Assembly: GCF_010093235.1 (NCBI RefSeq)
Contig: NZ_PDWP01000005.1
Span: forward strand, 62,001 to 126,000
DNA from: Pseudoxanthomonas suwonensis
Lineage (GTDB): Bacteria; Pseudomonadota; Gammaproteobacteria; Xanthomonadales; Xanthomonadaceae
Reading direction: 5' to 3'
DNA length: 64,000 bases
Shown here: one piece after another, positions 38,104-44,821 of the stretch
Layout of the letters: every line of letters starts with the position of its first letter
How positions within the stretch are numbered: position 1 is the first letter of the stretch
The notes under the pieces: generated by a model
Told to the model about the DNA's origin: nothing
The model's input: the letters and a program-made list of their open reading frames with translations, nothing else
The model's database searches: none
Made by a program: the position numbers and the translations under genes

Positions 38104-38532
38104 ATGAACGCAGATATCCCGCATTTCAAGATTCGGCTACCCAGAGACCTGAAGGCCAAGCTCGAGGAGGCCGCGAAGTCCCATGGGCGCTCACTCACTG
38201 CCGAGATCGTTCGGCGGTTGGAAGCGAGCTTCAGTTTCGAGATACCGAGCGGCCTGATGGTGTTGTTGCAGGCGGAGGCGAGAGCTGCGGGTCGATCTCT
38301 TAACGCTGAGATCATTCAGCGCCTAATGGGAGCTGGTGCGCCGCTGCCTGCACAGGTGAAGCAGAAGGCGGTCCTGGACGCGCTGGTGGATGCGGCAGGC
38401 GAGGTTGTCCGGTGGCATGACGCGCTGAGCGACCACCCTGATGCGACGGAGTACAAGGAGGCTTTCGATAGCGCGATGGATGACCTCGCCGCGTGGCATA
38501 CCCGGCTAGGGCGCCTGAACCGCGGCAAATGA
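38104..38532 (+). CDS. Tandem Arc-type ribbon-helix-helix repressor
   Basis: 142 residues containing two ribbon-helix-helix units in one chain. The first is near residues 6-40 (FKIRLPRDLKAKLEEAAKSHGRSLTAEIVRRL). The second is near residues 45-75 (IPSGLMVLLQAEARAAGRSLNAEIIQRL). Both share the GRSL-AEI-RL ending. Natural Arc works as a dimer, so this resembles a single-chain dimer. The second unit lacks the clear basic beta strand of the first. The stop overlaps the integrase start (ATGA). It probably controls the divergent excisionase promoter and lysogeny. Confidence 0.75.
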   Translation: MNADIPHFKIRLPRDLKAKLEEAAKSHGRSLTAEIVRRLEASFSFEIPSGLMVLLQAEARAAGRSLNAEIIQRLMGAGAPLPAQVKQKAVLDALVDAAGEVVRWHDALSDHPDATEYKEAFDSAMDDLAAWHTRLGRLNRGK

Positions 38533-39692
38533 GCGCCTTCTTGAAACTGGTTCGGCCACGCATGCGCGCGCTGGCCGCTGGTGAGTCGCTGAGCGAGCGC
38601 GGCATCACGTACACGCGCCTGGCCAACGGCGACGGCCGGTGGTCGGTCAACGTCATGGTCAACCGGCGCCGGCACCACCAGGTTGTGGGTCTCGAGTCGG
38701 AGGGCTATACCCGCACCCAGGCCGAGGCGCTCGTGGCGTCCCTCAGGGCGACGAAGCGGGCATCCGCGCATGGGGTGGCAGGCAGTCGCCACAACGCCGC
38801 CCAGACGGTTTCTCAGGCTGCGGATGAGTACCTGCAGTACCTGGCCGGCCATGACGGCCGGGACCTGGACACAAAGGCGCGCCGCTTCCGTGACCACCTG
38901 AAGCCCCACCTCGGGCAGAAGCAGGTCGCCCGCCTGACGGACGACGACTGGCTGGCCTACGTGGCGAAGCGGAAGGCGGAAGGGGCGAGCCCGGCCACGA
39001 TCAACCGGGAGCGGTCTGCGCTGTTGCACATGCTCAACACCATGCGCCGCCGGAAGCTGCTGGCCGCGGTGCCGGTGCTGGCACGCCAGGCCGAGCCGGA
39101 GGGGAAGCTGGTGTACCTGACGCCGGAGGAGTCCCAGCGTCTCCTGGACGCGGCCCTCGTCGACCAGTCCCCGCTGGCGCACCCGTTCGTGATGGTCACG
39201 CTGTTCACCGGGCTGCGGCACTCTGCCGCGCTGAACCTGCGCGCCGGCGACGTCGACGCCGATCGGCGCATCCTATGGATCCGGGAGGACAAGGCCGGCC
39301 GCCGCGAGCAGCCCATGCCCCAGATCCTGGCCGACTACCTGGCCGAGCTGGTCAGCGGGATGGAGCCGGAGGCCTTCATCTTCGCGTCGCCGCGGGCGAA
39401 GTCGGGCAGGGCCTACCAGATGAACGCCATCTTCGCCCGCTGCGTGAAGCGCGCCGGCATCGCCAAGCACTGCACCCCGCACACCATGCGGCACACCGCG
39501 GCCACCAACGCCGCGCACGCCGGCCTGGACGCGGCGACGATCCAGACCATGGGCGGATGGAAGACGCGGGCGATGGCCGAACGGTACACTCACGCCGCCT
39601 CGATGCGGGACGCCATGGATGCACTCCAAGGCCGCCTGACCAGCCGCCCGGTTACACCGGAATTACCACGACCGGTCTCCAAACCCGCCTGA
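38529..39692 (+). CDS. int: Tyrosine-type integrase of element 1
   Basis: 387 residues with an N-terminal arm-binding region, a SAM-like core-binding domain (SQAADEYLQYLAGH, ATINRERSALLHML), and a catalytic domain showing the Arg in TGLRHSAALNL, HTMRHTAATNAA (H-x-x-R), GGWKTRAMAERYTHAA (trp and nucleophile tyrosine). The ATG shares ATGA with the Arc-type gene. It ends ten bases before the reconstituted tRNA, as expected for a phage integrase beside its att site. It also covers the right copy of the 15-bp repeat. Confidence 0.93.
   Translation: MSAFLKLVRPRMRALAAGESLSERGITYTRLANGDGRWSVNVMVNRRRHHQVVGLESEGYTRTQAEALVASLRATKRASAHGVAGSRHNAAQTVSQAADEYLQYLAGHDGRDLDTKARRFRDHLKPHLGQKQVARLTDDDWLAYVAKRKAEGASPATINRERSALLHMLNTMRRRKLLAAVPVLARQAEPEGKLVYLTPEESQRLLDAALVDQSPLAHPFVMVTLFTGLRHSAALNLRAGDVDADRRILWIREDKAGRREQPMPQILADYLAELVSGMEPEAFIFASPRAKSGRAYQMNAIFARCVKRAGIAKHCTPHTMRHTAATNAAHAGLDAATIQTMGGWKTRAMAERYTHAASMRDAMDALQGRLTSRPVTPELPRPVSKPA
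39652..39666. repeat. Right copy of the 15-bp repeat, candidate integrase arm site
   Basis: TTACACCGGAATTAC, identical to 29274-29288 and inside the 3' end of the integrase gene. Confidence 0.5.
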
Positions 39693-39702
39693 AACCCTTA
39701 CA

Positions 39703-40133
<431 letters not shown>

Positions 40134-40621
40134 GGCAGGGGGTCTCCATCGCCCATAAGCAAACGCGCCCACCCCCCCAGGGGGGTAAGCGCGCGCTGTG
40201 GGCATATCGAGGGTGGCTGACAGTTTTTTGCAGAAATCCTGGGAGCTCCTTGGGGAGCTCTCAGGTCGACTATGGGTGCTGCTTTGCCTCGCCTGGGTGG
40301 AGAGGCCTGGGGGTGGGCCTCACGTAGGCGTAGGGCTCTTCTGGTTGTTGCCTGAGGGTCGTTGTTGCCGGTGGGCGGTCTTGCTTGCGTTCGCCCTGTC
40401 TGCCTGGTCCCTTGGACGTTGGTGGCCGGGCTTGTCTAGTAGTGGCTTTGTTTTGTGTGATCGGAAGCAGTGGCTTGCTCCTCGTAAAGGCTGCCTCTCA
40501 GGCCGCCCCATATTGGGGGCTTTACACCCTAGCCACCCCCGGGAGGGATCGGCCTCTGGAGCGCTTCTGCGGGGCTTCTGGAGGCCTTCCTTGGGCTGGC
40601 CAACCGTTGCCCTCCAGGTCG

Positions 40622-40860: not shown

Positions 40861-41592
40861 CTACTCAGCCACGCTTGCAGCGGCTGAGACTCGGCGTGCC
40901 TCTTCGGCGCCTCGCCGCTCGCTGTAGCGGTCTACCAAGTAGTCGCTGCGCCCGCGCACCAGCAGGGTGAACTTCATCAGCTCCTCCATCACGTCCACCA
41001 CGCGGTCGTAGTAGGACGAGGGCTTCATGCGGCCGTTGTCGTCGAACTCCTGCCAGGCCTTGGCGACCGACGACTGGTTCGGGATGGTGACCATGCGCAT
41101 CCAGCGGCCCAGCACCCGCAGGGTGTTGACCACGTTGAAGGACTGCGAGCCGCCGTTGACCTGCATCACCGCCAAGGTCTTACCCTGGGTCGGTCGCACG
41201 CTGCCATCTTCCAGCGGCAGCCAGTCGATCTGGTTCTTGAACACGCCGGTGATCGTGCCGTGGCGCTCGGGCGACACCCAGACCTGGCCCTCCGACCACT
41301 GCGACCACTCGCGCAGCTGCTGCACCTTCGGGTGGCTTTTGTCGACGCTGTCCAATACCGGCAGGTCATGCGGGTCGAACACCCGGGTCTCGGCGCCGAG
41401 GTGCTGCAGGATGCGCTCGGCTTCCAGCGCTAGCTTTCGACTGAAGGACTGCGGCCGCAACGAGCCGTACAGCAGCAGGATGCGAGGTGGATGCATGTCG
41501 CCGTCGCCCAGCACCTCGTGCGCGGGCGTAGGGAGCAGGCCCACGTCCAAGTGGGTGGGAAGGCTGAAGGGGGATTGTTCTGGCTTATTCAT
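40861..41592 (-). CDS. arsH: Arsenical-resistance flavoprotein ArsH
   Basis: 243 residues of the NADPH-dependent FMN reductase/ArsH family that oxidises trivalent organoarsenicals. [22 protein letters not shown] binds the FMN phosphate. [50 protein letters not shown] is the conserved ArsH core. The N-terminal extension of about 33 residues is normal. The gene diverges from arsR with only 17 bases between them, and the start has no clear ribosome site, so the transcript may be leaderless. Confidence 0.95.
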
Positions 41593-41628
41593 TCCACTAT
41601 TCTAGAAAAATGGAAACGAAAGATGCAA
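41575..41628. promoter_or_regulatory. Overlapping divergent arsH/arsR promoters with a central palindrome
   Basis: For arsR: -35-like TTGTTC (41575-41580), 17-bp spacer, -10-like TATTCT (41598-41603), seven bases before the ATG. For arsH on the other strand: TTGCAT (41628-41623), 18-bp spacer, TAGAAT (41604-41599), seven bases before its ATG. TTCCA (41592) and TGGAA (41611) are symmetric around TTCTAGAA (41600-41607), a probable ArsR operator covering both -10 elements and both starts. Neither gene has a ribosome site. Confidence 0.6.
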
Positions 41629-41942
41629 TCGCCTCCCTGACCGCCTTGGGCCATGCGACCCGCCTAGCTGCTTACCGTCTGCTGGTCGAAGCCGGCCCTG
41701 CAGGCCGCATGGCTGGTGACATCGGTGAGGCGCTGGGCGTTCCCGGCGCGACGCTGTCCTTCCATCTGAAGGAGTTGGTGCATGCCGGTCTGGTGGAGGG
41801 TGAGAGCCAAGGTCGCTACGTCTGCTATCGCGCCAACTTCCAGGCAATGAACGGCTTGATCGAGTACCTCACCCACAACTGCTGCTCCGGTTCGAGCAAC
41901 GCCGAATGTACGCAGGTGAACGATCCCGCCTGCGGCTGCTGA
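41610..41942 (+). CDS. arsR: ArsR/SmtB-family arsenic-sensing repressor
   Basis: 110 residues with a winged helix (ALGHATRLAAYRLLVEAGPAGRMAGDIGEALGVPGATLSFHLKELVHAGLV). The C-terminus has a cysteine cluster, NCCSGSS, then C and CGC, which would bind arsenite in place of the usual helix-4 pair. C-terminal cysteines of this sort occur in Acidithiobacillus-type ArsR. No Shine-Dalgarno precedes the ATG. It probably represses itself, arsH, arsC and acr3. Confidence 0.93.
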   Translation: METKDAIASLTALGHATRLAAYRLLVEAGPAGRMAGDIGEALGVPGATLSFHLKELVHAGLVEGESQGRYVCYRANFQAMNGLIEYLTHNCCSGSSNAECTQVNDPACGC

Positions 41943-41996: not shown

Positions 41997-42509
41997 ATGA
42001 CCCACAACGTTCTTTTCCTCTGCACCGGCAACAGTGCCCGTAGCGTCCTGGCCGAGGCCACACTACGTGCGTGGGCCGGCAACCGCTTCAAAGTGTTTAG
42101 CGCTGGCAGCCAGCCCACCGGCACCGTGAACCCGTTCGCCCTGGCCCAGCTGCAGGCCGAGGGGATTTCCACCGCCGGGTTGCGCAGCAAGTCCTGGGAC
42201 GAATTCACCACGCCGGAGGCCCCGCGCATGGACCTGGTCGTGACCGTGTGCGACTCGGCGGCAGCAGAGACTTGCCCGGTGGTGTTCGGGGATTTCCTAC
42301 GCACCCATTGGGGTTTGCCTGACCCCGCAGCAGCAGCCGGCAGCGATGACGACAAGCGTGCGGCGTTCAGGCAGGCCCATCGTGTCATCCAGGCCCGACT
42401 GATGGCCTTCCTGGCACTTCCCTCGTCGGCCTGGGAAGACCGTGCGCAGCTCAAGACCGCCCTGGACAAGATTGGCTTTGTCGAGGCCGAGGAGGAAACC
42501 GGTGAGTGA
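41997..42509 (+). CDS. arsC: Arsenate reductase, LMW phosphatase type
   Basis: 170 residues of the low-molecular-weight tyrosine phosphatase family. The anion loop is FLCTGNSARSVLAEA, and the later VTVCDSAAAETCPVVFG carries the other cysteines of the thioredoxin- or mycothiol-coupled family. It converts arsenate to arsenite for export. It is 54 bases after arsR, probably in one transcript, and overlaps acr3 by eight bases. Confidence 0.93.
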   Translation: MTHNVLFLCTGNSARSVLAEATLRAWAGNRFKVFSAGSQPTGTVNPFALAQLQAEGISTAGLRSKSWDEFTTPEAPRMDLVVTVCDSAAAETCPVVFGDFLRTHWGLPDPAAAAGSDDDKRAAFRQAHRVIQARLMAFLALPSSAWEDRAQLKTALDKIGFVEAEEETGE

Positions 42510-43560
42510 TGCAGCACCACGCATGGGTTTCTTCGAGCGCTATCTGACCCTTTGGGTAGCACTGTGCATCGTGGTGGGAACGCTGGTGGGCCACCGATGG
42601 CCGGCCGCCTTCGAGCGCCTTGGAAGCATCGAGTGGGCGCAGGTAAACCTGCCCGTGGCCGTGCTTATCTGGGTGATGATCGTGCCGATGCTGATGAAGA
42701 TCGACTTCGGCGCGCTGCGTCAGGTCGGTCAGCACTGGCGCGGCATCGGTACCACGCTGTTCATCAACTGGGCGGTGAAGCCATTTTCGATGGCTTTGCT
42801 GGGATGGTTCTTCCTACGCCACGTCTTCGGGCCTTGGCTGCCGGCTGATCAGGTGGACTCCTACATCGCCGGCCTCATCCTGCTGGCGGCCGCGCCGTGC
42901 ACCGCGATGGTGTTCGTGTGGAGCAACCTGTGCCGTGGGGATGCGGCTTTTACGCTCAGCCAGGTGGCCTTGAACGACGCCATCATGGTGGTGGCGTTCG
43001 CCCCTCTGGTCGCGCTGCTGCTCGGCATCTCCTCCATCACCGTCCCCTGGGCCACGCTGGTCATCTCCGTAGGGCTCTACATCGTGGTGCCTGTGATCAT
43101 CGCTACGGGCGTGCGCGCCTGGGTGATGCGAAATGGTGGACAGGCCAGGCTCGACGGCTGGCTGGCCCGGCTCGGCCCGCTTTCTCTGGCGGCTTTGCTG
43201 CTGATGCTGGTGCTGCTGTTCGGCTTCCAGGGCCAGCAGATCCTGGCGCAGCCACTGGTCATCGCCATGCTGGCCGTGCCCATCCTCATCCAGGTCTATT
43301 TCAACTCCGGACTGGCCTACCTACTGAACCGCAAACTGGGCGTGGCTCACTGCGTTGCCGGTCCCTCGGCCTTAATTGGCGCCAGCAACTTCTTCGAACT
43401 CGCCGTAGCCACGGCGGTAAGTGTTTTTGGTGTCCACTCAGGAGCTGCACTTGCGACGGTTGTCGGCGTGCTGATCGAGGTGCCGGTGATGCTATCGGTG
43501 GTTCGCATCGTCAACCGAAGCCGCAGCTGGTACGAGCGACCTCAAGCCGGCGGCATCTGA
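42502..43560 (+). CDS. Arsenite efflux permease Acr3
   Basis: 352 residues with about ten membrane helices, of the BASS-type Acr3 family rather than the ArsB family. The conserved region LLAAAPCTAMVFVWSNLCRGDAAFTLSQVALND contains the essential cysteine. The start is GTG 42502, with AGGAGG about nine bases upstream; ATG 42523 is a second option. Coupled to arsC by overlap; it removes the arsenite made by ArsC. Confidence 0.95.
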   Translation: MSDAAPRMGFFERYLTLWVALCIVVGTLVGHRWPAAFERLGSIEWAQVNLPVAVLIWVMIVPMLMKIDFGALRQVGQHWRGIGTTLFINWAVKPFSMALLGWFFLRHVFGPWLPADQVDSYIAGLILLAAAPCTAMVFVWSNLCRGDAAFTLSQVALNDAIMVVAFAPLVALLLGISSITVPWATLVISVGLYIVVPVIIATGVRAWVMRNGGQARLDGWLARLGPLSLAALLLMLVLLFGFQGQQILAQPLVIAMLAVPILIQVYFNSGLAYLLNRKLGVAHCVAGPSALIGASNFFELAVATAVSVFGVHSGAALATVVGVLIEVPVMLSVVRIVNRSRSWYERPQAGGI

Positions 43561-44081: not shown

Positions 44082-44200
44082 TCGTTTTGATAGGGGGACT
44101 TTGCTATTTCTGGATTAATCCCTTTTCTATCAATTATTTAGCATCTATTGCCGCTCTTCTTGAGACGAGCTAAAACCCTTTGAAACCCACTTTTAAGGGC

Positions 44201-44245
44201 CTCATAATCCCTTGGTTCCAGGTTCGAATCCTGGTGGGCCCACCA
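44201..44245 (+). repeat. tRNA 3' fragment and right attachment core (attR of element 2)
   Basis: 45 bases identical to the last 45 of the intact tRNA, from CTCATAATCC to the CCA end. The upstream tRNA half is absent. This is the original chromosomal 3' half. Confidence 0.9.
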
Positions 44246-44821
44246 CGTCCGTCGCACGCACGGCCCTGGAGCCTGGCCGGCCTGGCGTCCGTGCTGCGCC
44301 TCACTGGTCTGTCGGTCTGCTGGCGCCGGACAGGACTGCGCAGTCGCGGCGTGCCGGCGGGACCGCGATGGCCGCCAGCGCTGCGCCCGGGCTCCACGGC
44401 CAGACAGCCGCGCCCGTATGCCTGCGACCAGACTCTGGCCCCCCGCGCGGCGTCCGTCACATGGAACAGTCCATCGTGAGGCGATGTCAGGTTTTTCCTT
44501 ACAGAAGTGCGGAGTAGCCCGACAGCGCCGGGCCGGCCCGTTCAGGATAATGTACGGACCAGCGTGCACGGCGTCCGGCCATACCCTCCGGCGCCGAATC
44601 CCCTGCACTCCCAGGCGACCCCCTTCGCCGGGAAAGCTGGTCCCGGACCAAGACGGACCGGGGATGGAGATATGCGCGGCATCCCCAGCTGCGCACACCG
44701 GACGCCACCACCGGGTGCATCGCACCGGAAGTGGCGTGGACGCCCGCAAGGCTCGTCGTGACCGGTTTTGTTTTCTCCTCTCTACTCCACACGCACGTCG
44801 CCGGCCCGCCTGGCCGGACGC
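44246..44821. other. 576-bp stretch without a supported gene
   Basis: Chromosomal DNA right of attR. Short frames exist on both strands but are low in complexity and lack ribosome sites. I see no RNA gene. Part could belong to the old tRNA operon 3' region. Confidence 0.5.

Follow-up and report, generated by a model that had tools for sequence, protein, structure and literature searches.

The 54 bp between positions 41575 and 41628, from which arsH (minus strand) and arsR (plus strand) diverge, quite probably constitute one bidirectional promoter of the sigma-70 type, which would give rise to two leaderless mRNAs and be repressed in both directions by ArsR. The window analysed here is a stretch of 64,000 nucleotides from Pseudoxanthomonas suwonensis, to which all coordinates refer. 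We infer the transcription starts, the leaderless translation, the binding of ArsR and the joint repression from the observed anatomy of this region, its conservation, the 18 bp geometry and the fact that ribosome sites are lacking.

The arsH gene (40861 to 41592, minus strand, 243 amino acids, predicted to be leaderless) begins with the ATG at 41592-41590. Its product reaches 379 bits against the equivalog model TIGR02690, which is above the cut-off of 292.25, and matches PF03358 in the profile search. Four codons before this ATG the frame contains a TAG, the same one that forms part of the TAGAAT element described below, and upstream of the ATG no in-frame ATG, GTG or TTG is found before this TAG. 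The arsR gene (41610 to 41942, plus strand, 110 amino acids, ATG at 41610-41612), likewise predicted to be leaderless, has no further ATG, GTG or TTG in its frame back to the upstream stop. The winged-helix domain of ArsR is recognized by PF12840 (47.4 bits, cut-off 27) and PF01022 (23.2 bits, cut-off 22), and the score against NF033788 is 54.9 bits, 0.1 below the cut-off of 55. The nearest solved structure is the ArsR of PDB entry 6j05 (E=2.2e-23), which we take to be that of Acidithiobacillus ferrooxidans; common to both proteins is a C-terminal NCC motif, in which the adjacent cysteines of the window protein align with those of 6j05. This cysteine pair has a role in As(III) binding. By analogy with its family, ArsR would be a repressor that binds its own promoter and is released by As(III).

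Downstream of arsR, on the same plus strand, come an arsC-like gene of the thioredoxin type (41997 to 42509, 170 amino acids; 86.4 bits against TIGR02691, below the cut-off of 174.3), which probably belongs to the arsR operon, and then acr3, coding for the arsenite exporter (42502 to 43560; 372.7 bits against TIGR00832, cut-off 282.8). The latter starts with a GTG at 42502 and has an AGGAGG upstream of it, with a ribosome-site duplex of -11.8 kcal/mol.

A letter-by-letter check confirmed that 17 bp (41593-41609) separate the start codons of arsH and arsR, both of which are ATG, and that the promoter-like elements are where the initial annotation had placed them, namely a -10-like element before each ATG and a -35-like element 17 or 18 bp further up. 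In detail, arsR shows TTGTTC (41575-41580, plus strand), a spacer of 17 bp, TATTCT (41598-41603), 6 nt and the ATG, both elements being assigned by sequence and conservation. On the minus strand, arsH shows TTGCAT (41628-41623), a spacer of 18 bp, TAGAAT (41604-41599), 6 nt and the ATG. The -35-like element of arsH lies within codons 5-7 of arsR and was assigned by the conservation of GCAA, which is phylogeny-dependent, and its -10-like element, which overlaps that of arsR, by sequence and by the reciprocal -7T/-11A which the two boxes form. The positions of the -10-like elements predict the A of either ATG as the transcription start, i.e. 41610 on the plus strand for arsR and 41592 on the minus strand for arsH, 18 bp apart.

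Both predicted promoters match the sigma-70 hexamers weakly (arsR 3+4 of 12, 7 in all; arsH 3+5 of 12, 8 in all), and no promoter was found between 41300 and 42000 in a strict sigma-70 scan, so that a single locus cannot establish promoters here and the case is carried by conservation. The earlier statement that neither start has a ribosome site was borne out in that no Shine-Dalgarno match of at least 4 nt precedes arsH or arsR in the window. As Shine-Dalgarno sequences are used only modestly in this DNA (of 26 genes called in the window as controls, 8 have such a match), their absence alone says little. Leaderless mRNAs prefer AUG as their start codon.

For the comparison, ArsR loci were collected from named genomes as well as from genomes of the family, the phylum and the class, and were aligned without gaps on the arsR ATG. 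The alignment comprises 190 rows. From these, 174 distinct proteobacterial loci were obtained, 95 from Xanthomonadaceae (xanthomonad loci) and 79 from elsewhere, and 124 non-redundant rows, 52 from Xanthomonadaceae and 72 from others. One survey gave an ArsR match in 192 of 247 genomes, the best 79 places of which were used, weaker xanthomonad relatives lying outside the set; from a further survey 24 new places were included and 6 were left out. Three loci were dropped, one without an ArsR hit (L035) and two with no ATG near the homologous start (L145 and L153), and L118, which comes from the window's genus, was grouped with the xanthomonad loci. Because the survey rows were selected for an ATG start, the frequency of ATG at arsR is preset. 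A divergent ArsH match was found at 61 of the 95 distinct xanthomonad loci (with L007 to be discounted, its match being of 35% only), and the 34 loci counted as lacking ArsH include L056, in which the match is broken across frames.

The position of the arsR start is conserved across the relatives, and so are the promoter-like letters before it (positions with a minus sign are counted from the arsR start). Both A-11 and T-7 are present in 94 of the 95 xanthomonad and in 50 of the 79 other distinct loci. A TTG starting at -37 to -34 was found in 88 and 50 of them, respectively, whereas nine control windows of 4 bases contained it in 4-19 of the 95 and 1-11 of the 79 loci. T-18, T-17, A-11, T-10, T-7 and A-4 are invariant in the 52 non-redundant Xanthomonadaceae loci, and among the 72 non-redundant loci outside the family T-18 is kept in 56, A-11 in 53 and T-7 in 59; these sets are little conserved further upstream than -38. 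A Shine-Dalgarno match of 4 nt precedes arsR in none of the 95 xanthomonad and in 5 of the 79 other loci. As far as the alignment can tell, the conserved positions are those expected of a sigma-70 promoter with its +1 at the A of the ATG. The leaderless reading of arsR is well supported by this fixed geometry of -35, -10 and ATG in the relatives, and also by a related case, as PMC7563307 lists the arsR mRNA of Cupriavidus metallidurans CH34 as leaderless, which it defines by a 5' end under 5 nt from the start codon. Two plasmid-borne arsR relatives from Cupriavidus show the same layout as the window.

The initial annotation overlooked that bidirectional promoters have this as their standard layout, with overlapping -10 boxes and 18 bp from one start to the other. 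In the parts of PMC10268837 available, the divergent starts of such promoters are described as 7-25 bp and most often 18 bp apart, the commonest layout having 18 bp, a reciprocal -7T/-11A and -18T opposite +1A. In the window, 18 bp separate the predicted start on one strand from that on the other, the reciprocal -7T/-11A is present on both strands (A at 41599, T at 41603) and +1A is opposite -18T in both directions (T at 41592, A at 41610). T-18, A-11 and T-7 occur together in 93 of the 95 xanthomonad and in 45 of the 79 other loci. T-18 and the letters of the -10 box could, however, be kept by ArsR instead of polymerase, and because ArsR could preserve the same letters, the step to a bidirectional promoter is one that we infer.

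On the arsH side, 32 of the 61 loci with divergent arsH have its start at -18, which is the antisense start (31 with ATG and 1 with GTG), and no 4-nt Shine-Dalgarno match precedes any of the 31 ATG starts. The other 29 start elsewhere, in most cases at a distance of 24 or 39-47 nt to the start of arsR, and none of them has an ATG at -18. The sequence GCAA, i.e. the TTGC of the reverse -35 element, is found in 57 of the 61 loci with ArsH as compared to 15 of the 34 without it (Fisher P=1.6e-7, the loci being related). This association is weakened by the relatedness of the loci and by the poorly resolved ArsR tree (7 of 91 inner branches starred), which yields one supported independent pair of arsH and GCAA; since the association is not independent of phylogeny, no conclusion to that effect is drawn from these sequences. 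The same TTGC corresponds to codon 6 of arsR, GCA, and the A that follows it. This codon, at 41625-41627 in the window, is GCA in most relatives. GCA accounts for 74 of 94 alanine codons at this position and for 122 of 1447 other alanine codons in the same genes, a bias which is a sign of selection on the DNA within the coding region. Judged from these sequences, the claim that arsH is leaderless is fairly well supported for the class that starts at -18, to which the window belongs.

A candidate operator overlaps the -10 boxes. The element TTC-N10-GAA (TTCCACTATTCTAGAA, 41592-41607, dyad centre 41599.5) is conserved in register in 76 of the 95 xanthomonad and 39 of the 79 other distinct loci, and this conservation makes it the probable core of the ArsR operator. 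Together with an overlapping inverted copy, which has one mismatch, it forms the palindrome TTCCA-N14-TGGAA (41592-41615), whose arms (TTCCA at 41592-41596, TGGAA at 41611-41615) proved, letter by letter, to be centred exactly on TTCTAGAA (41600-41607, centre 41603.5), as had been noted before. It is self-complementary at 20 of 24 positions and its pattern occurs once in the window (shuffled sequences: mean 0.05, with a match in 5 of 100). Taken alone, however, the palindrome is only moderately unusual, because 11 of the window's 63,977 24-mers are self-complementary at 20 or more of their 24 positions. An exact match to TTCNANTATTCTNGAA was found at one place in the genome (3.42 Mb assembly). 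With two mismatches the operator pattern was found at three places in the genome, two of which are the same locus, and the backward control gave four; these numbers give no ground for claiming a wider ArsR regulon in this genome.

According to the initial annotation, a single bound ArsR would occupy TTCCA-N14-TGGAA around TTCTAGAA, covering both starts. That one dimer on this 24 bp palindrome constitutes the operator is possible but rather doubtful. Within Xanthomonadaceae, the mean dyad match is highest at the palindrome centre (0.644 at -6.5 vs 0.531 at -10.5), the relaxed pattern TTCNA...TNGAA is present in 81 of 95 loci (27 of 79 elsewhere), and the genome search recovers the element again as its overlapping inverted copy; the exact arms, however, are found in only 17 of the 95 xanthomonad and 11 of the 79 other loci. 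The right arm consists of arsR codons 1-2, ATG GAA, and is at least partly fixed by coding. Where codon 2 specifies glutamate it is GAA in 89 of 89 cases, compared with 196 of 542 glutamate codons elsewhere in the genes, and this bias may reflect either the operator or merely early codons that are A-rich throughout. In the loci from outside the family, it is TTC-N10-GAA that scores best as a dyad (0.54 vs 0.436 at -6.5); its centre, -10.5, falls on the -10 box of arsR. Partner coupling among the 37 in-register loci from outside is modest at -10.5 (P=0.029) as against P=0.51 at -6.5; among all 72 other loci it is seen at both centres, which was treated as an effect of the register, i.e. of the element being present or absent, and in Xanthomonadaceae it is uninformative because most columns are invariable. 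These alignments favour -10.5 as the core site, and the inverted copy perhaps holds a second dimer.

It is also conceivable, though unlikely, that only arsR is leaderless here, with arsH made from another start or an internal codon and the ATG at 41592 being incidental to the TTCATTC of the operator. The 29 of 61 loci in which arsH starts away from -18 would agree with this, as would the ATG at -18 in 9 of the 34 xanthomonad loci that lack arsH and the weak constraint on the first 31 arsH codons (4 synonymous to 7 nonsynonymous and 3 to 13 changes in two comparisons of relatives). All 31 ATGs at -18 in the arsH loci are, however, in frame with arsH, and in the window the ATG at 41592 is the first candidate start behind the TAG. 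We consider it very improbable that the conserved block is an ArsR operator only and that arsH and arsR are driven by unseen promoters at a greater distance upstream, their mRNAs then having leaders and binding ribosomes in the ordinary way. The weak hexamers and the empty strict scan would allow for this, and the ars promoters of Pseudomonas putida do have ribosome binding sites (PMC7994332, in the text available), but the conserved TTG near -35 falls outside either dyad, Shine-Dalgarno matches are missing before arsR in the 95 xanthomonad loci and little is conserved upstream of -38 in the non-redundant sets.

With one bidirectional promoter under the control of ArsR as the preferred reading, the overlapping and reciprocally symmetrical -10 boxes would share one melted stretch, and RNA polymerase would be able to bind either way round with the help of TTG-type -35 elements inside both coding regions, the two orientations presumably being mutually exclusive at any moment. 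Each transcript would have the A of its AUG as the first base, the two starts being 18 bp apart, so that both the arsR(-arsC-acr3) and the arsH mRNA would be leaderless. Without arsenite, ArsR would sit on an operator that overlaps the shared -10 region, i.e. on TTC-N10-GAA and possibly also on the overlapping inverted copy that completes the palindrome, and would switch off both directions; upon binding of As(III) it would leave, and either arsR-arsC-acr3 or arsH mRNA would be made. In P. putida, ArsR footprints from -39 to +14 and from -36 to +23 are reported, and ArsR1 and ArsR2 block transcription in vitro with footprints overlapping the -10 box (PMC7994332, available text). Because a footprint of that size would span both promoters with either dyad as its centre, the earlier idea of a joint block of both transcripts survives by analogy, whereas its assignment to one ArsR on the whole palindrome is uncertain.

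The proposed unit resembles several known systems in part. With the bidirectional promoters of E. coli and Salmonella described by the Grainger group it shares the 18 bp distance, the reciprocal -7T/-11A and the -18T opposite +1A, and with acrA/acrR of E. coli, where the repressor blocks both RNAs, the divergence of functionally linked genes of which one encodes the repressor; unlike in those promoters, as far as the accessible portions of PMC10268837 and PMC12825309 describe them, both starts in the window are predicted from the sequence to be the A of an AUG. With arsR of C. metallidurans CH34, which may belong to the same subfamily, the likeness lies in the reported leaderless mRNA, and the account of it in PMC7563307, in the part available, mentions no divergent leaderless partner. 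In Pars1 and Pars2 of P. putida KT2440, an operator over the -10 box blocks transcription and arsenite releases it, as is predicted for the window; the operator sequences differ, however, the P. putida promoters have ribosome binding sites and arsH of KT2440 belongs to the same operon as arsR, arsB and arsC (PMC7994332, as far as its text is available) instead of being divergent. A literature search on this subject, judged mostly from listings and with subscription literature outside its scope, found no description of a divergent leaderless pair at one bidirectional promoter.

If the reading is true, it unites promoters that work both ways from a symmetrical -10 box with leaderless mRNAs, two subjects that are usually studied apart. 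A divergent regulatory unit could then hardly be more compact than this locus, where 24 bp would hold the promoter, the operator and the two start codons, and the -35 elements would both lie inside coding regions. We give even chances to a wider suggestion, namely that this proteobacterial arsR subfamily has an intrinsically bidirectional, leaderless and self-repressed promoter, in which the operator consists of the shared -10 bases and a gene is captured when its AUG falls on the antisense start 18 bp away. On that same suggestion xanthomonad arsH would be such a captured gene, resulting in a divergent leaderless pair without intergenic space beyond the promoter core. The relatives, in which the distance of arsH from the predicted start is 0, about 6 or about 21-29 nt, would provide a clear test of gene recruitment to an antisense start, and the subfamily would obtain a candidate operator and a model of its start point across Proteobacteria.

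Some loci in the set deviate from the window. The closest relative, Pseudoxanthomonas taiwanensis (L002), has an ArsR that is 99% identical to that of the window; upstream of position 2501 of this locus an ACG stands at the place of the arsH ATG and the first ATG to open the arsH frame lies at a distance of 81 nt, so that ArsH may be lost or internally started there. In L005, again upstream of 2501, an arsH of the -18 class has GTG for ATG, which would be unusual for a leaderless gene. The plasmid pLMG930.1 of Xanthomonas euvesicatoria (L202, 1459-1501) exemplifies those loci for which an arsH leader is predicted; it has the same arsR core, and 41 bp separate its annotated arsH and arsR starts. 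In L065, L084 and L087 the divergent gene resembles an arsenate reductase and not arsH, as judged by eye from the translations, and other ars genes may share such promoters.

The surroundings of the ars genes in the window suggest that they lie on a small island of 4.47 kb inserted at a tRNA gene, because a repeat of the tRNA-Met gene brackets them, with an AlpA-type regulator gene in the interior and an integrase gene immediately beyond the border. In detail, the 3' part of the tRNA-Met gene (39703-39778) is repeated directly over 52 nt with 96% identity (39730-39781 and 44197-44248), the second copy lying 4467 bp further on. The AlpA-type gene (39735-40205, minus strand) is located within the presumed island, and the phage-type integrase gene (38493-39692, plus strand) ends just before the tRNA gene, outside the island as the repeats draw it.
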